A stretch of DNA of 64,000 nt from Candidatus Rifleibacteriota bacterium (GTDB lineage Bacteria; Muiribacteriota; Ozemobacteria; Ozemobacterales; Ozemobacteraceae). A program made the translations under genes and the position numbers. The notes below the pieces were generated by a model, which ran no database searches, was not told where the DNA came from, and saw nothing but the letters and a program-made list of their open reading frames with translations. The stretch lies in assembly GCA_018818125.1 (NCBI GenBank), contig JAHISQ010000152.1, positions 62,001-126,000 of the forward strand. Reading direction: 5' to 3'. Every line of letters starts with the position of its first letter. Position 1 is the first letter of the stretch. Positions 25,714 through 42,476 of this stretch are shown here, piece by piece.

Positions 25714-25742
25714 TGTCACAAATTGTGTCAGAATTCCGTATT
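25714..25742 (+). promoter_or_regulatory. Putative ECF-type promoter of the sigma gene (TGTCACA-N16-CGTATT)
   Basis: TGTCACA, 16 bp, CGTATT, 76 bp before the sigma ATG. The same pair occurs upstream of three other envelope genes in the window. TGTCACA with a CG-starting -10 resembles known ECF promoter patterns, so autoregulation is likely. Confidence 0.65.
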
Positions 25743-25817
25743 CAATATCAGTAAGAGGTATAGCTGTTAGTTTGCATTCGTATTTGCATTCTTGATCTGG
25801 TGTAAGGTGGTTATTGC

Positions 25818-26345
25818 ATGTCCTCTCGGGAGCAGTTGACTGATTTTTCTATTCTGGTAAAAACGCACTTGAACAGCGTCGTCAGATATGTGAGGTTCCT
25901 CACCCATGGAACCGAAGACGCAAGAGATATTACCCAGGAAGTATTTTTGAAAGCATGGCAGCAGTTTGATCCACAGAGAAAAAGTTCTTTTCGAGCCTGG
26001 ATCATGACAATCACACGAAATATGGTAATAGACACCTTTCGTCGCCGGGGACCGTCGATAAAATATACGGGAACACATATAGATACAGCTGCTTCCAATG
26101 CAACTGAAAATGGGAATTGTGTTGGATCTGATAGTGAGTTTTGTCCAGAAGGACTTCCAGCTTTTGCAAAATTGCCGGTTCAGCAAAGGGAAATTGTTTT
26201 CATGCGATATGTAGAACAGATTTCCTATGGGGAAATGAGCCAGATTACTGGCAAATCAGAAGAAGCTTTGCGGAAAATTGTATCGAGAGCCGTTTCGGCG
26301 ATTCGAAAGGAGGTGGACAATGAAACCTTGCAACAGGGTGAATGA
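25818..26345 (+). CDS. ECF-family RNA polymerase sigma factor
   Basis: 175 residues with sigma region 2 (residues ~15-85, D-A-R-D-I-T-Q-E-V-F-L-K-A-W and an R-A-W-I-M-T-I-T-R-N segment) and region 4 (~112-165, L-P-V-Q-Q-R-E-I-V-F-M-R-Y and the S-Y-G-E-M-S helix-turn-helix). A ~35-residue polar linker separates them. AAGGTGG lies 8 bases before the ATG. The stop overlaps the next gene, an anti-sigma candidate. The upstream TGTCACA/CGTATT pair suggests it drives its own gene and the cell-wall genes listed below (inference from motif sharing). Two promoters, housekeeping and ECF-type, are stacked upstream. Confidence 0.93.
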   Translation: MSSREQLTDFSILVKTHLNSVVRYVRFLTHGTEDARDITQEVFLKAWQQFDPQRKSSFRAWIMTITRNMVIDTFRRRGPSIKYTGTHIDTAASNATENGNCVGSDSEFCPEGLPAFAKLPVQQREIVFMRYVEQISYGEMSQITGKSEEALRKIVSRAVSAIRKEVDNETLQQGE

Positions 26346-27402
26346 ATGGCTAGAACAGGATCCACCCCCAGATTTGACAAAAATTCCAGGTTCTCTGGCA
26401 GATCACATCAGTATCTGTCAGAGCTGCTGCAAAACAGTAGGCTTTTTTCGAAATTTCTCCCAGGATAAAAATCTTGCAGGTCTTTCTTTGCGCGAAACAG
26501 GAGAATTTATGAAATCATTTCAGAACAAAGCTCTTGCAAATTCTAAGACATCTGATTCACGTGCTCTTCCGAAAGCGTCCATTTTCGCCTGGTTAGACAT
26601 GAAATGGTCATTAGCATTGGCTATGGTCGTTCTTTTACTTGTGATTGGATTTTCCTTGTTTTTTAAGCAAACCTCTGTTTCAGTAACAGAAGAAGTCCTT
26701 TCATTCGCGGTTCTCAAGGGGAAGGCAACCATTCTTTCCACTGACGGAAAAGGAGCAATTGTCGCTTCGAATGCGGAGCAAGTGCTAGTTCAAGAAGCTG
26801 GAATAAAGTTCGACTCAGATTCTGAACCAGTCGAAATTCAATATAAAAATGGTGGCAAAGTCTTTTTGACCGGACTTGGTCAGATGAAAGTATTGAAAGA
26901 CGGCATCAACGTCGAAACCGGTAAATTCAATGCCAAGTTCAAGAACCTTGGCGGCGTTTTGAAGGTTCGAGTCCCGTGCGCGGTACTTGCTATTCGTGGA
27001 ACGGAGATTCAGTTTGATATTCATCCGCCAACAGCAGAAATACTGCTGGTTGAAGGGGCAGCTGATCTGATTCCTGAAAATACTTTGCTGAAAACCATTC
27101 GGTTGGAAAGAGGGAAGCGGGTTATTCTTGCCAACAATACATGGGCTTTGCCTAAGTCTGAACTGCAGAATATCCCGAAGAATGAACCCCCTGTATCCAT
27201 TGCCTCTGATTCTCAGCCTCAGTCTAAGCCTGCCAGTGTAACCGATCTGTTGAACGCTCCAGAACAGGGGTATGAAGAAGACCCGGCTGCTTCTGAAGAT
27301 CCTGCATCTTCTGAAGAAGATATCGATACCGATTCCACAACAATCGGTGGTGATGGCGAAGAACGTAGCCCGATTGGCAGTGAAGATTTTGGAGATAACT
27401 GA
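26320..27402 (+). CDS. Anti-sigma factor: zinc-finger plus FecR domain
   Basis: 360 residues. The ATG at 26320 follows a perfect AAAGGAGGTG and overlaps the sigma gene by 26 bp; an in-frame start further upstream lacks a ribosome site. Residues ~28-36 contain H-I-S-I-C-Q-S-C, the H-x3-C-x2-C of zinc anti-sigma (ZAS) domains. A membrane helix (residues ~92-115) follows, then an extracytoplasmic FecR domain (~125-265, V-R-V-P-C-A-V-L-A-I-R-G-T-E). The tail is an acidic Ser/Glu/Asp-rich region. The layout, cytoplasmic ZAS, helix and outer FecR, fits a membrane anti-sigma factor that senses an envelope signal for the adjacent ECF sigma. Confidence 0.88.
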   Translation: MKPCNRVNEWLEQDPPPDLTKIPGSLADHISICQSCCKTVGFFRNFSQDKNLAGLSLRETGEFMKSFQNKALANSKTSDSRALPKASIFAWLDMKWSLALAMVVLLLVIGFSLFFKQTSVSVTEEVLSFAVLKGKATILSTDGKGAIVASNAEQVLVQEAGIKFDSDSEPVEIQYKNGGKVFLTGLGQMKVLKDGINVETGKFNAKFKNLGGVLKVRVPCAVLAIRGTEIQFDIHPPTAEILLVEGAADLIPENTLLKTIRLERGKRVILANNTWALPKSELQNIPKNEPPVSIASDSQPQSKPASVTDLLNAPEQGYEEDPAASEDPASSEEDIDTDSTTIGGDGEERSPIGSEDFGDN

Positions 27403-27440
27403 CGGCTTTACGCGAATTCTTTAAAATGGAAAAATGACCA

Positions 27441-29615
27441 ATGATACGAAGATGCTCTGGCGTAACAGATAACTTTTCGCCGGTTAATTTAAACTCCTGG
27501 CGGATCAGGCAAGGGTTCGTGTTGCCGCTTGTTTTTGGGGCAATGGCTGTGCTGACTCTGTTCTTTTTTATCATGAGCTTTCTTTCCAGCGGCCAGACCC
27601 AGGTAGCAAGTCACTTTGTTGATTCCGCACACTCTCTTGCCATTGCCCGAGCTGGCGCAGAATGGGCTGTGACGAAGTATGCCAGTGGCTCTTATGAGTT
27701 TAATCCGACCAATAAGATATCCGATCTTTTTTTTGGAACATCAACAAAGGAAGACGAATTTGAGCTGCAATATCCGGTTGAGCTGCTTCGCTACTTAGAA
27801 GACGAATTGAATGGTGGAGAACTTGTAGTGAAGATGAGGATCTTCGACATTACTCCTATGCCTTTACCGGATAAATTGGAGGGGTTTAAGCCAGATCCGA
27901 TCGAAAAATCTGGAACTGTTGAGTTCACCGCTATTGGCAAAGTAGGAAAAGCCAGTCGAAAAGTTCGTATCAGAAAAGGTTTTAAGGTCGTCATGATGGT
28001 TCACCCTGTTCTTTCAAAATTTACGCTTTTCGTAAGAGAAATGCTGAATAATCAGGAGATCAACGTTCTTGAACTAAAAACAAATTCTTCTGATTTCGAA
28101 AATGGTTGTCGTCCCATTATTTTGAACAATCAGGGATTTGACGAAACAGGAACAAACCGTTCCTTCGGCGTCGTCAAGAAGCCCTCACGAGAATTTGATT
28201 TGTCACTAGTCACAAAGAATGGTTTTGCACAACTTGTCGCGGATTCGGGATGGGTATTCCTTAACTCAAAGTCACCCCAGCCATGGATGCTAAACCTCGT
28301 AGGCGGAGGAAACCGTAGCGATTACGACGACAGGCTCCTGCTTCGCCTGGGTCTCTACGAAAGAACAGATCTGGAAGCAAAATATCATCTTAAAAACAAA
28401 CAAACCTCTACAGGAGAAGAAATAACGGCGTTATGGGAGAGTTTTCAGGGGATAAAATCAGATTATTATACGGTTCGAAAAGGTGCAAACGTTCTGGCAA
28501 GGCCCGATGATGTGTTGTCTACTAAAGCTCTTTTTGGTATGCCTAGTCCCCCCAGATGCCCTTCGCCAAAATGCGCTTTAATCAGGCCATTTGGAACTGG
28601 TCTGCATTTTTCTCCCACTCTGATGTTCGGACCAGTTTACATGCAATATCTGGTTTTTCGAGGTCTTGACGTCAAATTTGATTATGGTGCATTCTATCCA
28701 AATGTTCTTATTCCTGGATTTTTGGACGAATCTGATTTCGCATCGGCATTTTATCCGCTTCCAACAGTGAACAATATTCTGGCCCAATTCGGCAAATTTC
28801 TGGATATTAACAACCCAAACAATGTGAGTTCTCAATATTCCGATTATTCCGAGATCATGACCACAATCGACACCAGACTATATCTTGATGCGCTTGATTA
28901 TATCTTTATGAAAGAACGTGAAGGCGGAAGCATGGATGCGCCAAAATCAGCGACTTACACGACTCCATTGAAAAAGATGATCGAAGAGACAACTCCTTCG
29001 CTCGATATTCGACCTTGGGTAGGCGATCGTGGTTCACTGCAAACAGCCAGTGGAATCTTTGGAATGGATACACCGATTTTTGCAGGGAGCCTTGCTAATA
29101 TAAAAGGATGTAGGGAATTTCAAGCCAAGATAACCGCTGTATTCGCATCTTTCAAGGAACTGGAAGCCGGTTTTCTTGAAAAAAAGACCTCACAGCTTCG
29201 CCTGCCGGGAATCGTATATATTGGCGATACCGATCTAATACTCGACAAGGATCTTGAAATCACCAGTCCTGGAATAATTATCTGTGGCGGGAATGTTTGC
29301 ATCAAATCTGCGATAAAATCAAAGCATCCTGTAACTATCGTTTCTCTTAAAGATATCACCGTCGAAACGAGTCAACTCATCGAGGCACATCTGATCTGTC
29401 TGATGGGAACGTTTCGAGCGACCAATGGCTTTAACATCATAGGTGGACTGGCTGCCTGTTCAATTGACACTTCAAACATGAAGACAGGTGAAAAGAATAT
29501 CACTTTTGTGTCTGCACATGATCCATACTCCACCAAGGATAAATGGGATAGGAAGGCTGCTTATCGCTATCAACTGTCTCAAGAGGAGGAATATTTTATT
29601 GAAGGCGGAAAATGA
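27441..29615 (+). CDS. Large PilX-like membrane-anchored protein
   Basis: 724 residues. The N-terminus R-Q-G-F-V-L-P-L-V-F-G-A-M-A-V-L-T-L-F-F-F-I resembles a prepilin-type leader and helix (Gly before Phe) but without the usual Glu at +5, as in PilX or GspK-like minor pseudopilins. The region after the helix, A-R-A-G-A-E-W-A, also matches that style. The ~680-residue outer part is unusually large; it has no recognised enzyme motif, and its end (~590-690) is beta-helix-like with repeated I-x-I/V-x-x strands. It follows the FecR gene by 38 bp and overlaps the next prepilin gene. It likely belongs to a pseudopilus or pilus-tip complex (inference). Confidence 0.7.
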   Translation: MIRRCSGVTDNFSPVNLNSWRIRQGFVLPLVFGAMAVLTLFFFIMSFLSSGQTQVASHFVDSAHSLAIARAGAEWAVTKYASGSYEFNPTNKISDLFFGTSTKEDEFELQYPVELLRYLEDELNGGELVVKMRIFDITPMPLPDKLEGFKPDPIEKSGTVEFTAIGKVGKASRKVRIRKGFKVVMMVHPVLSKFTLFVREMLNNQEINVLELKTNSSDFENGCRPIILNNQGFDETGTNRSFGVVKKPSREFDLSLVTKNGFAQLVADSGWVFLNSKSPQPWMLNLVGGGNRSDYDDRLLLRLGLYERTDLEAKYHLKNKQTSTGEEITALWESFQGIKSDYYTVRKGANVLARPDDVLSTKALFGMPSPPRCPSPKCALIRPFGTGLHFSPTLMFGPVYMQYLVFRGLDVKFDYGAFYPNVLIPGFLDESDFASAFYPLPTVNNILAQFGKFLDINNPNNVSSQYSDYSEIMTTIDTRLYLDALDYIFMKEREGGSMDAPKSATYTTPLKKMIEETTPSLDIRPWVGDRGSLQTASGIFGMDTPIFAGSLANIKGCREFQAKITAVFASFKELEAGFLEKKTSQLRLPGIVYIGDTDLILDKDLEITSPGIIICGGNVCIKSAIKSKHPVTIVSLKDITVETSQLIEAHLICLMGTFRATNGFNIIGGLAACSIDTSNMKTGEKNITFVSAHDPYSTKDKWDRKAAYRYQLSQEEEYFIEGGK

Positions 29616-30012
29616 CCGACTGCAAAGTAATCGCAAGGCAGGTGTAACACTCGTTGAAGTCGCTGTTGTCGTCTGTATCACGGCAATCTTGTCTGGAGTG
29701 ATATATCGAATGTTCGGGCAACAGGTCGATCAGGTGAATAACAATAGCAAATCCTCCCAATACTATATGGATCTTGGAGTGTTTACCGAGACGCTCAAAA
29801 ATGATCTGGCCATGTCTAAAGCTGTTCAATCAAATCCAGACGGAATGAGTCTACTCGTCAACCCAGATGGAAATCCTGGGTCGATTACCTATTCATTGCA
29901 AGGTAACAAAATTGCTCGAGAGTTTAGAGGATTAGAGAAGATATTTAGATTTACAAATCCGAATCAAAAAGAGAGTCCTTTTATTTTTCGAATTGAAGAG
30001 GTGAACCCATGA
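29599..30012 (+). CDS. Prepilin-type minor pseudopilin
   Basis: 137 residues. The TTG at 29599, with AGGAGGA 8 nt upstream, is chosen over the longer in-frame ATG at 29488, which would run deep into the previous gene. The leader ending N-R-K-A-G is followed by V-T-L-V-E-V-A-V-V-V-C-I-T-A-I-L, the class III prepilin signal with Glu at +5. A short globular C-terminal domain follows. The gene overlaps the large PilX-like gene by 17 bp and the OmpA-type gene by 4 bp (ATGA), so the four genes are tightly coupled. It is expected to be processed by a PilD-type peptidase, which is not encoded in the window. Confidence 0.8.
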   Translation: MKAENDRLQSNRKAGVTLVEVAVVVCITAILSGVIYRMFGQQVDQVNNNSKSSQYYMDLGVFTETLKNDLAMSKAVQSNPDGMSLLVNPDGNPGSITYSLQGNKIAREFRGLEKIFRFTNPNQKESPFIFRIEEVNP

Positions 30013-30749
30013 ATAGGCACACTTTCTTTTTTTCCTCAAAAAGAACCATGAGAACGGTAGTGCGGTTTTCGTTAAAACTGGCAGGTGCCAGCCTCATTTT
30101 TTTATGCCTTATTATGTCAATCTGTGAAGCAAAATCGTACAGAGTCATTGTCGGCTATGAAAACGAAGAAATGGAAATACCTCTTATACCTGGTCGCATC
30201 ATTTTACCGAATGGTAAAATGCCTTTGCCCAGTTCACCACAGATGAATACAGCCTTTCCACCTTCAGCTAATATCCCGACTGTTGTTCCAGCACCCAATC
30301 CCGCTCCTGTTCCAACAACCTATATTCCCGGGAAATACGTTGATCCGATTATGGACGGCTTGCCAAGTGACGAAGTAACCCCTGAGAGTCTGCAAATTGC
30401 GCTTGATTCTATCGGCAGGGTCATTTTATCAGGAGTAACCTTCGATTTTGACAGTTCAAACCTCACTGCCGATTCGACTCCTTCTCTTGAAGCGGCTTTG
30501 GTATATCTGCAAAATAATCCCGAGGTTCGGATAGCCATCGAAGGGCATTGTGATACATCTGGGGATACCTCTCTCAACCCTGCCATTTCACAGGCTAGAG
30601 CTGATGCCGTAAGAGACTGGCTGATAGATCGAGGAATCGGTGGTTCACGGCTTAGGGCTGTCGGAATGAGTGATACTAAACCAATTGCTGATAACGGAAC
30701 GGAGGAGGGACGGGCAAAAAATCGCCGCGTGGAGCTGGTAAAAGAATAA
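30009..30749 (+). CDS. OmpA-domain peptidoglycan-binding protein
   Basis: 246 residues. A signal sequence or anchor (helix about residues 20-38, M-S-I-C-E-A-K-S cleavage region) is followed by a Pro-rich linker (residues ~75-105) and a C-terminal OmpA/MotB domain (~135-246). That domain has V-T-F-D-F-D-S-S-N-L, I-A-I-E-G-H-C-D-T-S-G, the R-A-D-A-V-R-D-W-L helix and K-N-R-R-V-E, the usual residues contacting diaminopimelate. The start overlaps the upstream stop as ATGA. Placed between prepilin genes, it may anchor the pseudopilin assembly to the cell wall (inference). Confidence 0.88.
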   Translation: MNRHTFFFSSKRTMRTVVRFSLKLAGASLIFLCLIMSICEAKSYRVIVGYENEEMEIPLIPGRIILPNGKMPLPSSPQMNTAFPPSANIPTVVPAPNPAPVPTTYIPGKYVDPIMDGLPSDEVTPESLQIALDSIGRVILSGVTFDFDSSNLTADSTPSLEAALVYLQNNPEVRIAIEGHCDTSGDTSLNPAISQARADAVRDWLIDRGIGGSRLRAVGMSDTKPIADNGTEEGRAKNRRVELVKE

Positions 30750-30819
30750 TTGCAACATTCATAGTGGTGTCTTAGAATTGATAAAAAGCAGGCATTTTGT
30801 GTGTAAGACGAGGGAAGTT

Positions 30820-31242
30820 TTGTCAGATAGAAAGAAGTTTGCAGGTTTCACCATGATCGAGATTGCCATCGCGATGATAATTCTCGCTGTGTTTCTCTTG
30901 CCTCTAACGCAGCATTTCGTTCGCACTCGCAGGGTTTCTCTCGCCGCCAGAGATGCCGTTATTGTGAATTCCCACCAGACATCATGCATTGGAGAGTTTT
31001 GTCAGCTTGACTATCGCGATCTGTCGTCAGCAACAGGTGCAACATTTACCCGAGTTCTCAAAAAGTATGCTGGCAAGAAAATAATTAACAATCTCGATAT
31101 CGAGACGCGAATTGACATCAATGAGATTGTCGAAGCGAGAATGATTTCGATTGATGTGAAATCTGAGTTTCGCTTCCCGGGATCTGATGATCAGGTGAGG
31201 CGAGAGGTTTGTATGCGTGGTTATGCATTCCCAAAACCTTGA
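30820..31242 (+). CDS. Prepilin-type pseudopilin
   Basis: 140 residues from the TTG at 30820 (GAGGGA 5 nt upstream; leader M-S-D-R-K-K-F-A-G). An upstream in-frame TTG at 30778 is possible and would add 14 residues. The cleavage motif F-A-G followed by F-T-M-I-E-I-A-I-A-M-I-I-L-A has Glu at +5. The rest is a small soluble domain with two Cys. The next prepilin gene starts 10 bp after this stop, and the OmpA-type gene ends 70 bp upstream. Confidence 0.8.
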   Translation: MSDRKKFAGFTMIEIAIAMIILAVFLLPLTQHFVRTRRVSLAARDAVIVNSHQTSCIGEFCQLDYRDLSSATGATFTRVLKKYAGKKIINNLDIETRIDINEIVEARMISIDVKSEFRFPGSDDQVRREVCMRGYAFPKP

Positions 31243-31252
31243 AGGAACTCTT

Positions 31253-31924
31253 ATGAAACAAGTCATTTGTAGCAGACGTGGAATGTCGGTCGTTGAACTT
31301 GTTCTCTACGCTCTTGTGGCTAGCCTGATCCTGGGATTCTTCATTTTTTTCTTCTGGAGAACTCGGCGAGTACATGAACAGCAAAATCTTGAAATAATCT
31401 ACCAGGGCTCTTTTGCTAAAATCTGTGAACAATTAGAAAGAGACCTCTCCGGTTGCAAAAGCTGGGAGCTTCAAAATGTCATGGGCTCAGACACTTTTCT
31501 TCTTATTACCAGGCTTGAAGGCGACATTACCTATGATGCCAAGTTTGAAACCGGGGATATTAAACGAAATATGAAAGAAAGCTCTTCTACATTTAGCTTC
31601 AAAGGTGAACGGGAAGGCTTTTTGAAATATATCGGGTTCGCTGAATATCCTGACAAGCCGAATATCTTGAGCCTGAAGATTGATCTGGAAACCGTTCCGC
31701 CCATCAAATTGACACATGATTTTTCCGTGCGCATCAGTGCCAACGACGATTCTGGTTTCTTTAGGGGAACACCAGATCTGCACGACCCAGAAATAGAGGC
31801 CGGGGCAAAGGCCGGAATCGGGATAACGATAGTGCCAAAGCCAATGATATCGCCAAAACCAACGATATCGTCAGGGCCCTCATGCCCAAGGCCAGGGGGA
31901 GGGCAAAAGCCTGTTGGCAGATAA
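31253..31924 (+). CDS. Prepilin-type pseudopilin with Pro-rich tail
   Basis: 223 residues from the ATG at 31253 (AAGGAA upstream; a longer frame would overlap the previous gene). The leader M-K-Q-V-I-C-S-R-R-G is followed by M-S-V-V-E-L-V-L-Y-A-L-V-A-S, matching the prepilin consensus with Glu at +5. The outer domain resembles GspJ-type minor pseudopilins in size. The last ~30 residues are Pro/Gly/Lys-rich (P-K-P-M-I-S-P-K-P-T-I-S-S-G-P). It is the last of the clustered pilin genes. Confidence 0.78.
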   Translation: MKQVICSRRGMSVVELVLYALVASLILGFFIFFFWRTRRVHEQQNLEIIYQGSFAKICEQLERDLSGCKSWELQNVMGSDTFLLITRLEGDITYDAKFETGDIKRNMKESSSTFSFKGEREGFLKYIGFAEYPDKPNILSLKIDLETVPPIKLTHDFSVRISANDDSGFFRGTPDLHDPEIEAGAKAGIGITIVPKPMISPKPTISSGPSCPRPGGGQKPVGR

Positions 31925-31974
31925 ATTGGGTAAGAATCAGGCTTATGTCTTTGAAGGAATTGTAAAAAGCTGGT

Positions 31975-32002
31975 TGTCACAAATAATGTGTTTTTTCGTA
32001 TT
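31975..32002 (+). promoter_or_regulatory. Putative ECF-type promoter (TGTCACA-N15-CGTATT)
   Basis: TGTCACA, 15 bp, CGTATT, 36 bp before the ATG of the SH3-M23 gene. The sequence is conserved with the promoter of the paralogous transglycosylase gene (42111-42138). Confidence 0.65.
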
Positions 32003-32037
32003 TTATTATGAACTCAAACATTAAGGAGAAAACCTCA

Positions 32038-32973
32038 ATGAAAATAAAGACTTTAAGTGTCCTCTTGTTGTCTTTCTTTGTGATCATGGTTTTATTTGGC
32101 CATGACGTATTTGCTGAAGAGGAAGGAGATGCGTGGGGCCCTGTGCAAAACGCAGAACCGGAAGGCACCGAAGGGTTCGAAGAGAGCATTGTTTCCCCGC
32201 CAACGGATGAGAGCTCAGCGACTGAATCGGCTCAAATCGAAGTAATAGAAAATGGTTCCGCTACTGAATCGGCTCAACTCGAAGGAGTTGTCGATGTTGA
32301 TACCTATTTGAATATTCGCACCAGTCCTTGGGGAAAAATTGTCGGTGGTTTGCGCTCCGGCGATAAAATCACAATTCTTAGTAAAGAAGGCGACTGGTTC
32401 AAAATTCTCAACGGCGACGAGGAAGCATACATTCACGCCTATTATGTGGATGCCCCAGGCTTTCCGTCGCACCAGGGCGTTGAGCCCCCGATTTGCGGCT
32501 CTGATGAATCTCCTGCTACTGGAGACCCGGGTTCCAGCGCAACTGTCGATAATGGTACATTTGGCGCCGAGCCCTGTACTCCAATGCCGTCCTCTGTCAG
32601 CTCAGATTTTGGCCCGCGCGATATAAGCGTCGGTAGCAGTTATCATGAAGGAATCGACCTGCCGGTTTCGAATGGAACACGCCTAAACGCTCTTGGCAAC
32701 GGTGTCGTCACTGAGTCTGGGTGGAGCGATGGCGGCGGAAATTTTGTGAGAATAAGATATGACAATGGATATTCTTCCTTCTATTGTCACCTTGAGAGCA
32801 CAAGTGTAACAGAAGGTCAGAGAGTCGCAATTGGTCAGGATGTCGCTCTCTCCGATAACACCGGTGAGTGGACAACCGGCGCACATTTGCACATGGGAAT
32901 TACTGATTCTAGCGGAAATAGTGTGAATCCGCGCGATGTTCCAGGCCTGGAATTTCCCCCACTCGTGGAATAA
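32038..32973 (+). CDS. Secreted SH3-domain M23 endopeptidase
   Basis: 311 residues from the ATG at 32038 (AAGGAG upstream). A signal peptide ends at about V-F-A-E. An acidic Ser/Glu linker precedes a bacterial SH3 domain (residues ~85-140, L-N-I-R-T-S-P-W-G and a W-F-K-I-L strand), then a lysostaphin-type M23 domain (~190-300) with the zinc ligands of H-E-G-I-D and H-L-H. It should cleave peptidoglycan cross-bridges in the envelope. The SH3/linker half is closely similar at DNA level to that of the transglycosylase gene at 41180, showing recent module duplication. It is first in a likely operon with the following gene (13 bp). Confidence 0.92.
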   Translation: MKIKTLSVLLLSFFVIMVLFGHDVFAEEEGDAWGPVQNAEPEGTEGFEESIVSPPTDESSATESAQIEVIENGSATESAQLEGVVDVDTYLNIRTSPWGKIVGGLRSGDKITILSKEGDWFKILNGDEEAYIHAYYVDAPGFPSHQGVEPPICGSDESPATGDPGSSATVDNGTFGAEPCTPMPSSVSSDFGPRDISVGSSYHEGIDLPVSNGTRLNALGNGVVTESGWSDGGGNFVRIRYDNGYSSFYCHLESTSVTEGQRVAIGQDVALSDNTGEWTTGAHLHMGITDSSGNSVNPRDVPGLEFPPLVE

Positions 32974-32986
32974 GGAATAAGAAAAA

Positions 32987-34000
32987 ATGAAAAACATTAT
33001 AATTGGTTCTCTGGTTGTAATTTCTCTGGTTTTCTCCGGTGCTGCCTCTGCAAAGACTTCTAGCGTTCTGGTAAATGGGTTGCAGTATGAAGCTGGCTTG
33101 GCCTCTTCTGCCATTGCTCACAAAGACATTTGCTCAATCGCATATGGCAAGGCTGATAACAATGTGGGTGGTGATGAACAATCATCTGCAGAGCAGCGCA
33201 TAGGTGGCGCGCCCACAGCTTACAATCCTCTTGCTGACGGGTCTTTCTGGGTTCTTGATGCGATAAATCAGAAAGCAAAACACTTTGCTACTAATGGAAG
33301 CTTGATTTCTTCATTTGCATTCCCAGGAAGCAGTTTAAAGCAGTTTATTAATATAACAGACATGGCTGTAATTCCGTCTGGTGGCTTTTATCTTTATAAC
33401 TCAACACAGGGAATTGTTGTTCGCGCCGATAATAAAGGTCTCTCGCAAGTTCAAATCGAAGGTTTGCCGGATTCTAAAGATATCGGCGTTGATAGCAAGG
33501 GAAATCTGCTGGTGGCAAATCCAGTCATGCGCAGCCTGCTGCGCTTCAACCCCGCCGGCGAATTGATTGAAAGATATGCTGGTCAGGATCTCTCTACTAT
33601 TGTTGACGCTTCTGACAAACCGCTTGGTGTGAAATTTAACGATCTGGAAGCAGAGCTGTTCCGGGCTGACAAAGCTTCACCTACAGTAAACGTGACAATC
33701 GCTAAATTTCCGCTTCAGACGCCTAAGGAACGGAAGGCACATTATACTTCGGCAAAGCTGATTGGTTCTGATGCAAAAAATAACCTGTATCTAGAGCTGA
33801 TTGCCTGTGACAAAGCCGGCGTTATTCACCAATACCGCGTTCTACGCCTCAACAGCGCAGGCAAAATTCTAAGTCAGGCTGATTTGCTTGTAATTCCATT
33901 CCTCGCCCCCAGAAAGAAAATGATCACTCCTGACGGCAAAATATTCGGTTTCAGAAGTGACAAAAAATCCTGGTTCCCGATTGCGTATACGCTGCCCTGA
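32987..34000 (+). CDS. Secreted NHL/propeller-like protein
   Basis: 337 residues with a signal peptide (I-I-I-G-S-L-V-V-I-S-L-V-F-S-G-A-A-S-A-K). The body has repeated patterns of G-S/G-G-F-Y-L-Y, then G-V-D-S-K-G-N-L-L-V-A-N, then V-L-R-L-N-S-A-G-K-I-L, as in NHL or six-bladed propellers. No catalytic motif is recognised. It starts 13 bp after the M23 gene and is probably in the same transcript. A long hairpin follows. It may bind wall fragments or proteins. Confidence 0.65.
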   Translation: MKNIIIGSLVVISLVFSGAASAKTSSVLVNGLQYEAGLASSAIAHKDICSIAYGKADNNVGGDEQSSAEQRIGGAPTAYNPLADGSFWVLDAINQKAKHFATNGSLISSFAFPGSSLKQFINITDMAVIPSGGFYLYNSTQGIVVRADNKGLSQVQIEGLPDSKDIGVDSKGNLLVANPVMRSLLRFNPAGELIERYAGQDLSTIVDASDKPLGVKFNDLEAELFRADKASPTVNVTIAKFPLQTPKERKAHYTSAKLIGSDAKNNLYLELIACDKAGVIHQYRVLRLNSAGKILSQADLLVIPFLAPRKKMITPDGKIFGFRSDKKSWFPIAYTLP

Positions 34001-34020
34001 GTTGTCACCAGAATAAGACA

Positions 34021-34056
34021 TTAACCCGAAAGCATGACAACATGCTTTCGGGTTAA
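34021..34056. terminator. 16-bp perfect hairpin after the propeller-like gene
   Basis: TTAACCCGAAAGCATG pairs exactly with CATGCTTTCGGGTTAA around a 4-nt loop ACAA, 20 bp past the stop. There is no T-run, so it may be an inefficient terminator or an mRNA 3' stabiliser. Confidence 0.55.
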
Positions 34057-34245
34057 ATGGCCGAATAATTCCGTTATATTAAGCGTCGTTGTAGTTATTC
34101 AGAGAGTGTCTTCAAAAATATGCAACATTGCTTCTTTATGAGGATCTTTGAATTACTGCAAGTTGATTGCCAGATTTCTTTTGATCTTTAAGGAATTTTT
34201 AATTAACACCAGCTCAAAAAGAGTTTGAAACAATCGGAGGTTCTT

Positions 34246-35316
34246 ATGAACAGATTTTATCGAAGACTGATTGCTTCGTTTACAATGGTTGCTTTTTTTC
34301 TGCAACTGTTCACACCGATTGTAGTTTTTGCTCAAGATACCCAGAAAGCACAAATTCAGCAGGCAATAGATGAATTTCAGGGAACCTATGATGAGATAGA
34401 GGCCGTCAAAGAAATTGAACTTGGCTCTATTACATCAGAGATTCTTAGGATGATCGAGAACTGCGAAAATTACATTGCAATTCCAAGAGACGATAAGGGG
34501 ATAACCACTCCCGAGCAATCACGTGAATGGGCTGCAAAAATGCAGGCTCAACAAGAAAAAGCAAAGCTTGAGGGCTACCTTGCCCAGATCGAAAAAGCTA
34601 ATAAAGATATAGCACAGATCAAGTGGGATGCCTGGAAAACAATGAATTCTTTGAAAAACGGTTCATTGGAAGAAGCGGCAAAGACGGATCCCACAAAAGT
34701 CTATAATAGTCTCGACAAAAACGCCAGCGCATTGGCTGTCTATCAGGACGCGTTGAAAGGGGCCGGTGATTCTCTTCTTGCCGCCGCCGCCGCGCTTGAA
34801 AATGCCGCAATGCTGCTTGGTTTTGTTACAGAAGCTTGCGTTGCGATTTCCGCAACAGTAGCACTAGCTCCATTTACTGCGCCAATTGCAGCAATTACCG
34901 GACCATTAGCAGGAGTATGTTCAGCATCTGCACTTGCAATTAAAATAGCAGGAGAATCTTTGATAGCTGCCGCTGACAACGCGATTACCAGTGATGAAGA
35001 TTATATTGAGCTAGTCGGCAATATCGCTGCTAAAGAAGGGTTAGAGTACGGCCGTGATTATGTCGTTGGAAAAGTCGGCGGTAAACTGGCCGGCGCGATT
35101 GGCACAGCCGCTGAAGACATGTGGGGAGGCTCAGAGTTTAACGAAGGGCTATCCAATCTGATTATCAAAGAATTAGTAAAGCCTACTAATTCATCCATAG
35201 ACGAAATGCTTGAAAATAACCTTGATGAAATGAACAAACACATAAGTGATGAGCCGACCGAGGAAGAAAAAATAATGATGCCGGCATTTATTAAACCCCA
35301 ATTAAACTGGGATTAA
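34246..35316 (+). CDS. Secreted Ala-rich protein with hydrophobic core
   Basis: 356 residues; the ATG at 34246 has GGAGG upstream, whereas a start seven codons earlier has none. The signal peptide is M-V-A-F-F-L-Q-L-F-T-P-I-V-V-F-A. Residues ~30-150 are charged and helical with coiled-coil character, then ~170-240 form hydrophobic Ala/Ile-rich helices (A-A-A-A-A-L-E-N-A, A-P-F-T-A-P-I-A-A-I-T-G-P-L-A-G), then a polar C-terminus. The general layout is like that of the secreted protein at 10925, but I could not recognise a family or prove homology. The gene is monocistronic as far as I can see. Confidence 0.7.
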   Translation: MNRFYRRLIASFTMVAFFLQLFTPIVVFAQDTQKAQIQQAIDEFQGTYDEIEAVKEIELGSITSEILRMIENCENYIAIPRDDKGITTPEQSREWAAKMQAQQEKAKLEGYLAQIEKANKDIAQIKWDAWKTMNSLKNGSLEEAAKTDPTKVYNSLDKNASALAVYQDALKGAGDSLLAAAAALENAAMLLGFVTEACVAISATVALAPFTAPIAAITGPLAGVCSASALAIKIAGESLIAAADNAITSDEDYIELVGNIAAKEGLEYGRDYVVGKVGGKLAGAIGTAAEDMWGGSEFNEGLSNLIIKELVKPTNSSIDEMLENNLDEMNKHISDEPTEEEKIMMPAFIKPQLNWD

Positions 35317-35322
35317 AAGTTC

Positions 35323-35532
35323 TTAAAGACCCATGATGCGCAACTTCTCGACACGGATGCCGACGCGAAATGGGCATTTGACCGCATCCGCAATAAGCCG
35401 ACCTGTCTCAGACAAACCGCTTTTTGAGCGCCAGTAACTGGAAATTGGCACCCGGGTCAGGTCTTTTTTTACGACTACCAGATAATATATCCATGATTCG
35501 GCAGCATTTTCGCCTACTGAGTTATTAAAACA
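35323..35532 (-). pseudogene. Probable gene remnant
   Basis: A 70-codon open stretch lies between two stops with no initiation codon and ribosome site. The coding-like product includes A-E-S-W-I-Y-Y-L-V-V-V-K-K-D-L and S-G-L-S-E-T-G-R-L-I-A-D-A-V. It is likely the 3' end of a decayed or deleted gene. It abuts the end of the secreted Ala-rich protein gene and the ECF-like site at 35541. Confidence 0.35.
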
Positions 35533-35540
35533 TTAAAAGA

Positions 35541-35569
35541 GGTCACAGATCGCCGGGAGTTGTCGTATC
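35541..35569 (+). promoter_or_regulatory. Putative ECF-type promoter (GGTCACA-N16-CGTATC)
   Basis: GGTCACA, 16 bp, CGTATC; each half differs by one base from the sigma-gene promoter and the spacing is the same. It points toward the DUF3592-like gene, whose ATG is 139 bp downstream. Confidence 0.5.
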
Positions 35570-35707
35570 TTGGATTAGCTGAGTTTTTCGCTTTTATATA
35601 TGCTTTTCATAAAAGATTCCTTCAATTACCTTGGGATTCATACGAATGTTGCATACTTCTACTTTTCAGTAGTTTACCGAAAATTGATAATCGGAGGGTC
35701 GCAAGAA

Positions 35708-36202
35708 ATGGAATCTGAAGAGTTCATAAAAAAATGCGGAGTCCTGGCGCTTGCATTATTACTATTCTATACCAGTTATGCCTGGATTCGGGAAGCCCCT
35801 CTTGAAAGAGCGCGTTACGCAAAAACGAGCCACTGGATTCCTGCGATTGCTACTGTAACCGGCAAGCGTATTGCACATCAATATGTTCCTGAAATCGGAG
35901 ATGAAAATATTCTGGTGTTGAACTACAGTTGGTCGGTTGGTACACAAACAATTTCAATTGAATGTGGACAAATCAGATCGATTAATATAGATGATGTCAA
36001 TAGACTTTCTGAGGAAAGACCTTTGGGCTGCGAACGAGCGATCAAGGTGGATCCGGCAAATCCGCGTAGATTTATCTTCGTAGAATTCGAAGCATTAGAA
36101 GGACATGGAGTAACGTTAACTTACATGATAGGAATAGTATATTTTGTGCTCGGGTTATATTCTCTCAAAGTTGTTTTTTCCCGAGAGGAGTCGAATTATT
36201 AG
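35708..36202 (+). CDS. Small two-helix membrane protein, DUF3592-like
   Basis: 164 residues from the ATG at 35708, which has GGAGGG upstream; an earlier in-frame ATG at 35600 lacks one. A membrane helix near residues 10-25 (G-V-L-A-L-A-L-L-L-F-Y-T) precedes a beta-rich central domain (I-A-T-V-T-G-K-R-I, then V-L-N-Y-S-W, then V-D-P-A-N-P-R-R-F), followed by a second helix near 138-156. The V-x-Y-x-P-x-x-P strand pattern is that of DUF3592 proteins, whose function is unknown. The upstream ECF-like site places it in the proposed regulon. Confidence 0.65.
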   Translation: MESEEFIKKCGVLALALLLFYTSYAWIREAPLERARYAKTSHWIPAIATVTGKRIAHQYVPEIGDENILVLNYSWSVGTQTISIECGQIRSINIDDVNRLSEERPLGCERAIKVDPANPRRFIFVEFEALEGHGVTLTYMIGIVYFVLGLYSLKVVFSREESNY

Positions 36203-36345
36203 GTTTTTTTCATGTGCGAGCCTGAAAGAACACCTGATTGATCGAAGGGTTGAAATCCTCTTTTGCAGCTAGATTATTAAACTCGGCAATTTCTCTTCAT
36301 CTGTTGGATTTGTAAAGTTATAGCAACTTTATTTTTTCACGAATC

Positions 36346-36374
36346 TGTCACAAAAATGAACCAAATTGCGCATC
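36346..36374 (+). promoter_or_regulatory. Degenerate ECF-like site (TGTCACA-N16-CGCATC)
   Basis: A full TGTCACA, 16 bp, then CGCATC. It reads into a transposase remnant and no intact plus-strand gene follows, so it may be a promoter orphaned by insertion or deletion. In the 36203-36626 gap I see no other feature except that remnant. Confidence 0.3.
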
Positions 36375-36381
36375 CTGGTCC

Positions 36382-36576
36382 TTAGTCACAGTTGAGTTTA
36401 GAGTAAAGAGATTTCAGCTTTATTCTCGCATCTTTCGTTGAAAATCGCCATTCGACACCTTTCTGCGATTTATTCCGATCACGCGCCCATGCCATGGTTT
36501 CCTTGCTCAGTTTTAGCTCATCAATATCGGCCTGTGCAGCCTTTACGCGTTCTGGATTGGATGATGCTATGCCCAT
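36382..36576 (-). pseudogene. Transposase C-terminal fragment, IS630-like
   Basis: A 64-codon piece ends V-E-W-R-F-S-T-K-D-A-R-I-K-L-K-S-L-Y, which matches the W-x-F-T-T-x-D-A-R-I-K-L-K-x-L-Y terminal motif typical of IS630-type transposases. The frame is open a little further upstream but lacks the catalytic DDE region. No terminal inverted repeats were found. It is a relic of a mobile element between the DUF3592-like gene and the cyclase. Confidence 0.5.
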
Positions 36577-36626
36577 GACAGACTGATTAGAAGCTCGGTT
36601 TTGCCAAGGGTGGAGAGCGTCAGTTT

Positions 36627-38642: not shown

Positions 38643-38906
38643 GCTTATTGTTACCTGTCAGAGTGATTTGTCTACGTTTGCATGATAATCTCAACTGGCT
38701 GAAATTACAAATAGAGACAACCCTTCGATTTTAATTTGCGTAGCTCTTTAATTCATGTTATTCTTGGCGGAAATACCGACTTATGCATAGCTCGAAATAG
38801 CTGTTAATCAACTTCTCCTATCTTGTAAGATAGCAAATAAAAGTTTCTTTCCGGAGAAGAAAACCCGGAATTGGAAAACAAACATTAAGAAAGGCTGTGT
38901 GAAGCT

Positions 38907-39464
38907 ATGGCGTCAGGATTTTCTGGACCTGGTGATATTTTACTTGCCGCATTTGGAATTGCCGTGGTTCTTGGAGTAGCATTCTTTTTTCTTGTATTTT
39001 TACCCGCACGGAAACGTGATCGATTAGTCAATGAGGCTATGGCATTCAGAGGCAAAAAGGACCATCTTGAAGCTGTGAAAAAGCTGCTGGCGGCATACAG
39101 TGTCGGAATTACCTGGCCCTGGCAGAATTCTATGGTTTGCGACAAACAGAAGGAAATACTGAGGTATCTTATCGATTCATACGAAAAGCTGGGAAAAGAT
39201 GCCATCAATCTCGATGGAAACAGTTATACAGAAAAAGACGTTCTTAAAATGGTTCGCGATTTTGGCAGACGCCTTATCGACAAATCTCTGGGAAAGAACA
39301 TTACCAGTGAGCCGCCAATGCGACCAATAACCCTCAAATCTGTGGTTTGTCCTGTCTGTATGAACAATCTTTCTAGAGCACATCTGGTAAGTCGCAATAA
39401 ACGCTGGCATTGTCCCGTTTGTGATCTTCCCATCTATTCACATCTGCCCGGTGGTCTGGATTGA
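38907..39464 (+). CDS. Membrane protein with C-terminal zinc ribbon
   Basis: 185 residues. One N-terminal helix (about residues 10-32, I-L-L-A-A-F-G-I-A-V-V-L-G-V-A-F-F-F-L) precedes a soluble helical domain (~38-130) and a C-terminal zinc ribbon with C-P-V-C-x-n-C-P-V-C (about 144-174). No known family. The ribosome site (AAGAAAGG) is weak and rather far from the ATG. A 16-bp inverted repeat CTATCTT-GT-AAGATAG at 38818-38833 upstream is a possible operator. No neighbour on the same strand. Confidence 0.65.
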   Translation: MASGFSGPGDILLAAFGIAVVLGVAFFFLVFLPARKRDRLVNEAMAFRGKKDHLEAVKKLLAAYSVGITWPWQNSMVCDKQKEILRYLIDSYEKLGKDAINLDGNSYTEKDVLKMVRDFGRRLIDKSLGKNITSEPPMRPITLKSVVCPVCMNNLSRAHLVSRNKRWHCPVCDLPIYSHLPGGLD

Positions 39465-39484
39465 AATCTTTTTTGAGCCTTTGT

Positions 39485-40021
39485 TCAGGGTTGGGTGGCG
39501 AGATAATATATGAATCCAATCAGGCCTGCGATCATGACAAGTGCGATGGCTCCGTTGAAAAGCAGCTTTACGTGCCATTTTGTCCGATAGGATGGTACAG
39601 ATCCGACAATGACTGACTGGATACCGTTCAAAACGGCAGATGCACCTGCAAAAGCGCCTAGGACCAAGATCTTGAAAAATTCCTTCCCCTCCGACCCGCC
39701 CTTTGTCACCATGAATATGAACAAAGCCGAAAAAACACACAACGTTGCGCCTATAGCTACGTTACGGATTCCCTGATTGTAAATTCTTTCCGGTATTTCG
39801 GTGCTGTTTTCCGCATATTTTATGATAAGGCGCATTGCGCTGAGCGGCAGGTCGGCGCATTCCCTGATTTTACTGATATTTTCGCTTTCAGGCTTCGGAA
39901 CCAGGTAAATGCCTTCTATTAAAGCGTTAAAGGTTTCTTCGCCAATTTTTCGGCGTATTTCTGGGATAGACATTACAGGTTTTGCATTTGCCTGTGACTT
40001 TCCCATGTCTGTCGAATGCAT
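39485..40021 (-). CDS. Hypothetical multi-helix membrane protein
   Basis: 178 residues; the N-terminal ~85 residues are soluble and helical, followed by three membrane helices (about 88-108, 118-137, 152-172; V-A-I-G-A-T-L-C-V-F-S-A-L-F-I-F-M, I-L-V-L-G-A-F-A-G-A-S-A-V-L-N-G, A-L-V-M-I-A-G-L-I-G-F-I-Y). I do not recognise it. AGGAGAA lies 6 nt before the ATG. It converges on the zinc-ribbon gene and stands apart from the next upstream gene by a 242-bp gap with a hairpin. Confidence 0.65.
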   Translation of the reverse strand: MHSTDMGKSQANAKPVMSIPEIRRKIGEETFNALIEGIYLVPKPESENISKIRECADLPLSAMRLIIKYAENSTEIPERIYNQGIRNVAIGATLCVFSALFIFMVTKGGSEGKEFFKILVLGAFAGASAVLNGIQSVIVGSVPSYRTKWHVKLLFNGAIALVMIAGLIGFIYYLATQP

Positions 40022-40191
40022 ACAATTCTCCTGACTGATGCTGCTACACTGACAGAAGGGCAGCAGTTGATAAACCCAGTTTTCATTAAATCAATTAGTG
40101 CTTTAAATTAATGCATTTGCAGAGCAAACGCCAGTATTTTTGGCATCTATTTTTTGCAATCTGTCTAAAATTGCCTGAAAACACAATCTAA

Positions 40192-40213
40192 AACCTTATT
40201 GGGCCATAAGGTT
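40192..40213 (-). terminator. Possible terminator of the DUF3298 gene
   Basis: An 8-bp stem AACCTTAT/ATAAGGTT has a 6-nt loop and, on the minus strand, is followed by TTTTAG. It is weak in GC, so the call is tentative. Confidence 0.4.
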
Positions 40214-40263
40214 GGCTTTTTGGCACTTCATTTAAGTCTGAGTCGATGCTGCTGCTTTCTTTA

Positions 40264-41121
40264 TTATTCCTTCAGAAATCTTCCGGCTGGGCCTTTGGCA
40301 TCGACAACGGTTTTGAGATCACTCCAGGGGATTAACACCTCGGTGATTCCCTTAGCATATGGAGCAATTTCGCATTGATTGAAGCAGAATGACATTCCAG
40401 ACTTCGAAATCAGGAAATTCCGGTTCAGTGAGAATTGGTCATTTTCGAATCGATAACCCGCTTGTTTATAGGTTTCTTGGGGTTTCATGTTGCGGATCTG
40501 GCGAAAATGGTTTTCCGCGGCTTTGGTCAGATTGCCAAGATTGGCCCTGGGAATCAGGTCGAAGAGGCTGTAAAGATTCCCTGTTTTCATGGAAAACACC
40601 AGGTAGGTGATGTTTGAAGTCGGATGTGCTCCACCGGTAAAAACCGAATGGAGGATTTTGATGCAGAACAAATCTTCATCGTAATGGTGGACGGTTGCTT
40701 TGAACTTGAGGAACCACGCGCCAGGCATTTTCGGAGTCTTTTTCATGGATTTTTCATAGTCATTGCCGAAAGTCTCCATGAGTTGTTCTACCGTTGTGTG
40801 GGTTTTCCCGTCCAACATATTCAACAATCGCCTCTGGATGGCTTCATTAATGGTTGTCACGGCAACATTTTCTCCGACCTGGCAAGACAATTCAGGAAAG
40901 CTAATATCGATCTTTGCTGCGATAGCCTTTTTTCCTGTCGCTTTCGGGGGAGGAATCACCCGGCTGAAATTTTTGACAACGGCCGAAATGGAACTGGTGA
41001 TCTGTATGGGGGCTTCATTCTGGCTATTTCCGGTAGTAGTGACAGCCCATCCGGTCCATAAGGCAAAGAGTATGAACACTGATACGAGCAACCCGATCTT
41101 GTTTCTCATCTTGTTTTTCAT
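40264..41121 (-). CDS. Exported DUF3298-domain protein
   Basis: 285 residues with an N-terminal helix (residues 8-25) for export or anchoring. The body (~55-285) has the DUF3298/PdaC-like layout: a beta strand region, an F-T-G-G-A-H-P-T-S-N motif, L-F-D-L-I, and a C-terminal C-E-I-A-P-Y-A-K-G-I-T-E-V-L-I-P-W-S-D-L. This same domain in Bacillus RsiV binds lysozyme. It is 58 bp downstream of a lysozyme-like transglycosylase gene on the same strand, so an inhibitor, sensor or partner role is an attractive inference. GGAG precedes the ATG. It lacks the short cytoplasmic anti-sigma domain of RsiV. Confidence 0.75.
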   Translation of the reverse strand: MKNKMRNKIGLLVSVFILFALWTGWAVTTTGNSQNEAPIQITSSISAVVKNFSRVIPPPKATGKKAIAAKIDISFPELSCQVGENVAVTTINEAIQRRLLNMLDGKTHTTVEQLMETFGNDYEKSMKKTPKMPGAWFLKFKATVHHYDEDLFCIKILHSVFTGGAHPTSNITYLVFSMKTGNLYSLFDLIPRANLGNLTKAAENHFRQIRNMKPQETYKQAGYRFENDQFSLNRNFLISKSGMSFCFNQCEIAPYAKGITEVLIPWSDLKTVVDAKGPAGRFLKE

Positions 41122-41137
41122 TTTGTTTCTCCACGAT

Positions 41138-41169
41138 CGCCAAGCTCTTGGCGGGATTTTTTTTTTTTT
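41138..41169 (+). other. Hairpin plus 13-T tract in the transglycosylase-DUF3298 spacer
   Basis: CGCCAAG/CTTGGCG with a 2-4 nt loop is followed, after GGA, by 13 T residues. Read on the plus strand it has terminator form, though no plus gene needs one. On the gene strand it is a poly-A tract followed by a hairpin just upstream of the DUF3298 ribosome site. It may control the relative expression of the two genes or block antisense transcription. Confidence 0.5.
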
Positions 41170-41179
41170 CGAGTCGCTT

Positions 41180-42073
41180 TTATTGCGGTGGAAACTGGCT
41201 GAGGTACTCTTCGTAGTTTCCGCGGTTGTAAGTGCTCCATGGGCTCCAATCGGAGCAGTTCGCGCTCATCTGAATCATGACGCGAATATTTGTTGCCGGA
41301 TCATACAGGTCTTCATAACAACTCAGACCATATTGCGCCATGCGTTCGGGGCCAAGCTCTCCGATCATATTAATCTGGAACAACCCGTAGGACATGTCCC
41401 CGGTTGAGCTGTCCCCGTTGAAGGCGCCAGGGTCTCCGCCCGATTCAGCCATGCCGATGGCCCAGGCCATCCGCAGTTCTTCGCCTGTGAGACCAGCCTG
41501 CTGCAGATATCCGAGAAGGGGTCCTCCTCCACTGGCTCCACCTGCGCCACCGCCGCCGGCGCCTGGGGCCTGATTAGAGCCGCAAATAGGGGGCTCAACG
41601 CCTTGATGCGACGGAAAGCCTGGGGCATCCACATAATAGGAGTGAATGTAGGCAAACTCGCTGCCGATGAGAATCTTGAACCAGTCGCCTTCTTTACTGA
41701 GAATCTTGACTTTATCGCCGGTGCGAAAACCGCCGATGATTTGTCCCCAGGGGCCGGTGCGGATATTCACATAGGTATCAACATCGACAACTCCTTCGAG
41801 ACTTGGAGCTTCAGAAGCTGAGCCTTCCGCTGTTGTCTTTAAGTCAATGTCTACTTTTTCGTCAACTTCTTCGATTTGAGCCGGTTTAGAGATTGAATTT
41901 TCCTCTGTTGACGCTGGGGCGACGCTTTCTTCAAACCCTTCTGTGCCCTCAGGCTCTGCGCTTTGCAAAGGCCCCCACGAATCTTCTGTTTCTTCAGCCA
42001 ACGCTGCAGGACCACATAAAGCCATGGTCATAAAGAATGATAACAGGAGAATGCTCCATGTTTGTATCTTCAT
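41180..42073 (-). CDS. Secreted SH3-domain lytic transglycosylase
   Basis: 297 residues from the ATG at 42073 (AAGGAG 7 nt upstream); the open frame runs far further but without a ribosome site. A signal peptide is followed by an acidic linker and an SH3 domain (residues ~92-150). The end (~185-290) is a lysozyme-like SLT domain with M-A-E-S-G-G-D, the Glu expected to be catalytic, and S-Y-G-L-F-Q-I-N. It should cut the glycan strands of peptidoglycan. The signal, linker and SH3 are nearly the same as in the M23 protein at 32038, and so are parts of the 5' DNA. It is probably co-transcribed with DUF3298. Confidence 0.9.
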   Translation of the reverse strand: MKIQTWSILLLSFFMTMALCGPAALAEETEDSWGPLQSAEPEGTEGFEESVAPASTEENSISKPAQIEEVDEKVDIDLKTTAEGSASEAPSLEGVVDVDTYVNIRTGPWGQIIGGFRTGDKVKILSKEGDWFKILIGSEFAYIHSYYVDAPGFPSHQGVEPPICGSNQAPGAGGGGAGGASGGGPLLGYLQQAGLTGEELRMAWAIGMAESGGDPGAFNGDSSTGDMSYGLFQINMIGELGPERMAQYGLSCYEDLYDPATNIRVMIQMSANCSDWSPWSTYNRGNYEEYLSQFPPQ

Positions 42074-42110
42074 AAAAATTCTCTCCTTCACAGTTAAGGC
42101 CTCATATAAG

Positions 42111-42138
42111 AATACGAAATTTTTTGGGTTCTGTGACA
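42111..42138 (-). promoter_or_regulatory. Putative ECF-type promoter (TGTCACA-N15-CGTATT)
   Basis: On the minus strand, TGTCACA, 15 bp, CGTATT, 37 bp before the transglycosylase ATG. Spacing and sequence match the site upstream of the M23 gene. The rest of 42139-42476 holds no gene that I can support. Confidence 0.65.
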
Positions 42139-42476
42139 ATCTACAGGGAGATTTTAGACACCTGCTGATTTTTAAAAACCCTCTTGAGCAGGGAAGTGGC
42201 TGCCCAGGCATGCTCACAAAAACTGGAATTCTGCCAGCCGGACTAGTAACCAACTTGTTGAGCAATACCCCTTCGCTTTTTCTACGAAATTTTGTGAAAA
42301 ATCCAATGATTAGATGCGGCCGCGTCAGTAGGGGGGCCTCTGAGCAGGGAATGCCCATCAGTCCCTTTTCATTAAAGGTAACGGTGAGTTTTATCGAGTG
42401 CTTGCGCTGACGATATATATGAGATTTTTGAAAAAAAATGGAATAAAATACAAACTCGTGGATTTAAGTATATGTG

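Follow-up and report, generated by a model that had tools for sequence, protein, structure and literature searches.

The question raised by this locus is which regulator reads a two-part element, TGTCACA-N15/16-CGTAT(T/C), that recurs before envelope genes in a stretch of 64,000 nucleotides from an uncultured Candidatus Rifleibacteriota bacterium (GenBank assembly GCA_018818125.1, contig JAHISQ010000152.1, positions 62,001 to 126,000; this whole stretch is called the window, and coordinates refer to it). A preliminary description, made from the letters alone, had located four such sites, upstream of a gene for an extracytoplasmic function (ECF) sigma factor (25818-26345, hereafter the 25818 sigma), an SH3-M23 peptidase, a small membrane protein and, on the opposite strand, an SH3-SLT transglycosylase, and had proposed that the sigma factor drives its own gene plus cell-wall hydrolases. 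Our analysis indicates that the element is very probably the promoter of the 25818 sigma, which would drive its own minor-pilin operon plus separate envelope units; that this sigma factor recognizes the sites directly is what we infer from the sequence comparisons described below.

All four sites were found where they had been placed (25714-25742, 31975-32002 and 35541-35569 on the plus strand, 42111-42138 on the minus strand), and each is close to the start of a correctly oriented gene, with leaders of 75, 35, ~138 and 37 nt for the sigma, M23, membrane-protein and SLT genes, respectively. Searching the window for TGTCACAN{15,16}CGTATY gave three exact matches where 0.02 would be expected, a count that none of 100 shuffled sequences reached. 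A genome-wide scan, which the preliminary description had proposed, was carried out as pattern searches of the 6,063,963-base assembly and returned four matches to TGTCACAN{15,16}CGTAT (the reversed-pattern control gave two), three of which are the reported window sites, a clustering with P ~5e-6. The fourth, on contig C4, lies 43-46 nt upstream of a gene, with a ribosome site, for a signal-peptide protein of 243-245 aa, so all four exact matches in the genome precede a correctly oriented gene. Allowing one mismatch added just five sites, each within a long open frame as chance would predict, and these were rejected as further promoters.

In addition, when the window was scanned with a weight matrix built solely from the sites of other species, the four highest scores (26.2, 25.8, 24.6 and 19.9 bits) were those of the reported sites, while the best score in 30 shuffled windows, used as the control, had a mean of 14.7 and a maximum of 20.7. 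The site that ranks fourth, 35541-35569, is not outstanding by itself, but orthologues of its gene in two relatives keep the site. The fifth-ranked promoter-like sequence (36346-36373, plus strand; TGTCACA-N15-CGCATC, 17.1 bits) was discounted as a regulon promoter, since no gene lies close downstream on the same strand. The window count, the genome count, the foreign-trained matrix and the orthologous sites lead us to reject a chance origin, and the motif is confirmed as real and far above chance.

The relatives compared were five other genomes of the same genus (G001-G005) and one of another genus, g2 (G006); for G003 the comparison was limited to the sigma and M23 genes. Three of the five congeners (G001, G002 and G003) carry an orthologue of the 25818 sigma (65-70%), and a gene order of sigma, anti-sigma, 724-aa PilX-like protein, 174-aa prepilin, OmpA, PilV-like protein, prepilin-like protein, M23-SH3 and 337-aa protein is conserved to the contig ends; G001 and G002 also keep the unit of SLT and DUF3298 genes, as well as the gene for the small membrane protein. 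A TGTCACA-N15/16-CGTA site stands upstream of the orthologues of the sigma gene (3/3), the M23 gene (3/3) and the SLT gene (2/2). It reads TGTCACA-N16-CGTAG before the sigma gene in all three relatives and TGTCACA-N16-CGTATT ~140 nt upstream of the SLT gene in G001 and G002; before the membrane-protein gene it reads TGTCACA-N16-CGTATC in G001, and in G002 the -35 is GGTCACA beside an identical -10; the -10 variants across the genus are CGTATT, CGTATC, CGTAGT and CGTAGC. At most of these sites, those of the sigma and M23 genes among them, the boxes were kept while the spacers diverged. Motif matches cluster on the sigma contig in all genomes that have the sigma gene (five genomes; P ~1e-8 to 4e-5), and the two congeners that have no sigma orthologue, G004 and G005, contain no motif site, against 3 and 1 matches to the reversed control. 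Among the candidate sigmas examined, only the presence of the 25818 sigma tracks the motif.

Two distant sets of sites extend this pattern. The C4 protein has close orthologues in G001 and G002 only, and its gene lies directly behind the regulon's membrane-protein gene in G001 and on the regulon contig in G002; therefore the C4 match is part of this gene set and has been relocated to a different contig. In the other genus, the 6.3 Mb of G006 contain only two motif matches, 7 kb apart, the first ~20 nt upstream of a gene for an ECF sigma (34% identity to the 25818 sigma) and the second 46 nt upstream of a signal-peptide gene within a minor-pilin operon; an ECF tree did not resolve the G006 sigma as the sister of the 25818 sigma.

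The genes and predicted promoters of the locus are as follows.

25714-25742, plus strand: predicted autoregulatory promoter of the sigma operon, TGTCACA-N16-CGTATT, 75-nt leader.
25818-26345, plus strand: ECF sigma factor, 175 aa, regions 2 and 4 only (PF04542 7e-18, PF08281 1e-9, TIGR02937 3e-24).
26320-27402, plus strand: membrane anti-sigma, 360 aa, with an HISICQSC zinc-type domain, a transmembrane (TM) helix and a periplasmic FecR-fold domain.
27441-29615, plus strand: PilX-like large minor-pilin-type protein, 724 aa (GFVLPLVFGAMAVLTLFFF N-terminus; synteny; homologues beside other pairs of ECF and zinc-type anti-sigma (ZAS) genes).
29488-30012, plus strand: prepilin-like protein, 174 aa, G/VTLVE (Pfam N_methyl 3.6e-4; at 20.4 bits, under the 21.2 cut-off); the true start is probably inside this frame.
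30009-30749, plus strand: OmpA-family envelope protein (PF00691 8.5e-21).
30778-31242, plus strand: PilV-like prepilin, GFTMIE (G/FTMIE) (N_methyl 2.2e-6; TIGR02523 2.6e-4, below its cut-off).
31217-31924, plus strand: prepilin-like protein, GMSVVE (G/MSVVE), from sequence and synteny; no Pfam family.
31975-32002, plus strand: predicted promoter of the M23-SH3 operon, TGTCACA-N15-CGTATT, 35-nt leader.
32038-32973, plus strand: secreted SH3-M23 peptidase (PF01551 8.5e-24, PF08239 4e-11).
32987-34000, plus strand: secreted 337-aa protein of the M23 operon (synteny; pairs with M23-SH3 elsewhere in the family).
34225-35316, plus strand: secreted 363-aa protein, conserved in the cluster (synteny).
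35541-35569, plus strand: predicted promoter of the membrane-protein gene, GGTCACA-N16-CGTATC.
35708-36202, plus strand: small two-TM membrane protein (ribosome site ggaggg, conserved start).
40264-41121, minus strand: secreted DUF3298/PdaC protein, downstream of SLT (PF11738 1.1e-15, PF13739 3.2e-7; synteny in G001 and G002).
41180-42073, minus strand: secreted SH3-SLT lytic transglycosylase (PF18896 1.4e-18, PF08239 4.5e-8), an N-terminal paralogue of the M23 protein.
42111-42138, minus strand: predicted promoter of the SLT-SH3 operon, TGTCACA-N15-CGTATT, 37-nt leader.

Gene starts were set by good ribosome sites (ATG 25818 for the sigma, 32038 for M23, 35708 for the membrane gene and 42073 for SLT), and that of the M23 gene was moved from 32008 by its ribosome site and its orthologues. 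The 35708 gene had been labelled DUF3592-like, a label that we drop, as no Pfam DUF3592 match appears even at E = 1; for the 363-aa protein gene, neither site inspection nor the matrix scan of the window gave a promoter match of its own. Several prepilins of the first operon carry a class III signal (G/xxxxE), namely the three peptides listed above together with the PilX-like GFVLPL protein. Because this operon mainly encodes prepilin-like proteins and OmpA, the cell-wall hydrolases are only part of the regulon, which, as predicted from sequence, is centred on minor pilins. The earlier proposal is upheld in that sites occur at orthologues in three congeners and in neither of the two sigma-less genomes, and is broadened in that hydrolases form one portion of the predicted targets.

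In the 25818 sigma Pfam finds only PF04542 and PF08281/PF04545, and beside it lies a helical domain with an Hx3Cx2C motif followed by a TM helix, features of an ECF with a class I (ASDI) anti-sigma; the 26320-27402 protein is placed among class I anti-sigmas, as defined elsewhere (PMC7406223), because of this domain. The three residues (H29, C33 and C36) are invariant in 13 homologues. In its AlphaFold model, N-terminal helices at 3-47 are followed by a hydrophobic helix at 93-116 and, at 128-276, by a beta domain modelled with confidence; a Foldseek search with this model retrieved the FecR-type anti-sigmas 4m0h and PupR 6ovk at probability 1.00. The Pfam FecR family is detected in 10 of the 13 homologues (best 1.6e-9), the window protein being sub-threshold (E 0.016).

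These features suggest a mechanism in which the 25818 sigma would be kept inactive by this membrane-spanning anti-sigma, with its zinc-type helix bundle, TM helix and periplasmic FecR-fold domain, until a presumed envelope signal releases it. Once free, the sigma would direct transcription from TGTCACA-N15/16-CGTAT(T/G/C) sites and so increase expression of its own operon, which encodes the PilX-like protein, three further prepilin-like proteins and OmpA besides the sigma and anti-sigma, and of the separate units for SH3-M23 and its partner, the small membrane protein, SH3-SLT and the DUF3298 protein, and the distant C4 secreted protein. The output may be a minor-pilin-containing surface structure that is built or seated with local peptidoglycan remodelling; the switch may sense the state of the envelope or pilus, with the hydrolases opening peptidoglycan for the pilin structure.

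Several observations concern the surroundings of these genes. The DUF3298/PdaC protein (40264-41121) is a homologue of the RsiV-like sensor domain. RsiV is a lysozyme-binding anti-sigma with a domain similar to DUF3298/PdaC, so the window protein may bind or restrain the transglycosylase. Elsewhere in the family (L196, L197 and L198) the M23-SH3 gene is also paired with the one for the secreted protein of 337 aa, and this conserved pair lies outside any TGTCACA regulon. A gene for a CHASE2-like/SpoIIE-type phosphatase (23122-25557) lies upstream of the sigma operon, and one likewise precedes another ECF/ZAS/PilX operon in G010 (L192, 16486-19347). The source genome has ~25 matches to T2SSE/PilB-type ATPases, one of them within a 1168-aa frame at 6191-9697, so a pilus or secretion assembly machine is available.

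Other readers of the sites can be considered, the first being another sigma of the same genome, a reading that we regard as very unlikely. One candidate, ECF2 (42474-43010), is divergent from the SLT gene and 0.4 kb away, but in G001 and G002 its orthologues do not share a contig with the regulon, and it was rejected because G004 has its orthologue (67%) and no TGTCACA-N15/16-CGTA site. At this second locus (42474-43434), which has orthologues across the genus, the sigma gene is followed by one for a membrane protein of 154 aa that lacks a ZAS motif. Partial cross-reading is conceivable for the other candidate, a paralogue on contig C173 with the related promoter GATGACA-N15-CGTATT, but this type also occurs in G004 and has (G/A)ATGACA sites of its own in four genomes. 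The site (G/A)ATGACA-N15-CGT(A/T)TT is conserved, in four genomes within the genus, upstream of the paralogous ECF/ZAS-FecR pair concerned (L030/L191 on contig C173 of the source genome, L029, L031 and L012), and would represent another class of ECF promoter.

It is also highly improbable that the motif is the operator of a DNA-binding regulator (a repressor or a two-component regulator). Conservation by itself is silent on what binds it, but the fixed orientation to genes, a spacing that varies by one base (15/16), the CGT-type -10 and the site beside the sigma gene are like those of ECF promoters, for which AAC and CGT are hallmarks (PMC8103513), and a symmetric operator does not fit them. 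The CGT-type -10 site before the sigma gene is itself conserved. The least credible alternative, that the M23 and SLT genes were copied together with their upstream DNA and the other sites are coincidental, accommodates the 68% identity of their N-terminal parts and their aligned leaders, but the genes for the sigma, the membrane protein and the C4 protein share no homology with M23/SLT, and this alternative is contradicted by the boxes conserved beside diverged spacers in three species and by the independent G006 pair, which it leaves unexplained.

The paralogy nonetheless affects how the sites are counted. In the source genome the M23 and SLT N-terminal parts are closer to each other than to their own orthologues (60% and 53%), and their leaders of 35 and 37 nt match, while the SLT leaders of relatives are ~140 nt. 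The 5' end of the SLT gene was probably homogenised with the M23 gene recently, promoter included, a change that leaves the separate SLT sites of the relatives unaffected; the four reported sites cannot be treated as four independent promoters.

Assignment of the motif to the 25818 sigma is thus the preferred reading, and the following points weigh against it. The paralogous and seemingly homogenised M23/SLT 5' regions reduce the number of independent sites in the source genome. The membrane-protein site (35541-35569) is weak taken alone and adds less because its spacer is also conserved. The G002 orthologue of the C4 gene keeps TTTTTCGTATT without TGTCACA, so that only the -10 half is visible. 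The presence and absence pattern is based on few genomes, mostly or all of them metagenome-assembled, and one of the two sigma-less genomes (G004, G005) is 82% complete. Lastly, where the first operon begins and ends is an assumption.

Comparison with known systems places the 25818 sigma outside the groups that it most resembles. ECF41 sigmas, which include M. tuberculosis SigJ and those of B. licheniformis and R. sphaeroides (Ecf41), recognize TGTCACA and CGTC at a spacing of 16 ± 1 (Wecke et al., 2012; PMC3426412). The two systems share this -35 box, which the preliminary description had called a known ECF style, as well as the spacing, a CGT-type -10 and a site upstream of the sigma gene itself; they differ in the remainder of the -10, which is CGTC in ECF41 and CGTAT(T/G/C) here. 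ECF41 proteins also have a large fused C-terminal regulatory domain and no anti-sigma, and their neighbours encode a carboxymuconolactone decarboxylase, oxidoreductase or epimerase, whereas the 25818 sigma lies beside an anti-sigma and is 175 aa long, compared with 312 aa for SigJ (5xe7). Membership of ECF41 was rejected because an anti-sigma is present, the C-terminal extension is absent and the -10 is not CGTC.

FecI/FecR pairs are similar in the FecR-fold periplasmic domain that follows one TM helix of the anti-sigma; here there are in addition a zinc-type HxxxCxxC domain and a promoter-like site before the sigma gene, and a minor-pilin operon takes the place of the iron transporter. No TonB receptor gene was found among the neighbours examined of the sigma/anti-sigma pair; the source genome has four TonB Plug-domain matches, each on a contig other than C61, and a distant partner is possible. 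The predicted autoregulated sigma/anti-sigma operon with its envelope targets is like those of E. coli sigma-E and B. subtilis SigW and SigV, and the DUF3298/PdaC protein recalls the sensor domain of RsiV. Unlike those envelope-stress ECFs, the system described here would use TGTCACA rather than GGAAC/TGAAAC as its -35, its predicted regulon is small, mostly local and dominated by prepilin-like proteins and SH3 hydrolases, and the DUF3298 protein is a separate predicted target and not the anti-sigma. The first operon resembles minor pilin operons of the fimU-pilVWX type in that several putative prepilins with class III signals are encoded together. None of the papers searched joins an ECF sigma, a minor pilin and FecR.

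The 25818 locus may also belong to a wider family. In most of the Riflebacteria loci examined (L185-L195 and 25818-31924 of the window), ECF plus HxxxCxxC anti-sigma pairs lie beside PilX-like and prepilin genes, several per genome. Within ~330 nt upstream, 16 of 41 ECF loci of phylum relatives have ACA-N15/16-CGT(A/T), where 2.5 would be expected and the highest count in 1000 shuffles was 10; looser matches at further loci of the N type are mostly ATGACA. The bases before ACA follow sigma clades (TGTC in the 25818 clade and G006, and GATG/AATG, TGTA, TGGA or TGTG in others), which suggests that related ECF/FecR systems share this core with clade-specific bases before it. When the base before ACA is C, the recognition-helix residue after LR is K; G goes with N, and A goes with L apart from one case of K. 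We offer this pattern as a hypothesis because it involves few lineages and was noticed after the fact. Position-specific relationships between ECFs and promoters are, as a concept, already known (Todor et al., 2020, as cited in PMC8103513). It is tentatively proposed that Riflebacteria possess a family of pilin-operon-tied ECF/FecR-fold pairs with a common ACA-N15/16-CGT(A/T) core, separated by TGTCACA, GATGACA, TGTAACA or TGGAACA, with the LR residue tracking the base. If so, the TGTCACA regulon would be one channel in a set of insulated, pilin-linked, envelope-sensing switches.

Among the papers searched there was no study of sigma factors in this phylum, for which the analysis now offers a predicted sigma-promoter pair together with a small predicted regulon. 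An ECF41 -35 box under a structurally different, anti-sigma-bearing ECF would be a clean case for the reading of the -35 by region 4. In addition, minor pilins and peptidoglycan hydrolases are linked in the predicted regulon to a FecR-fold anti-sigma that has no TonB receptor gene beside it, and in this way the identity of the signal, which may be pilus assembly or damage to the envelope, becomes a testable question.

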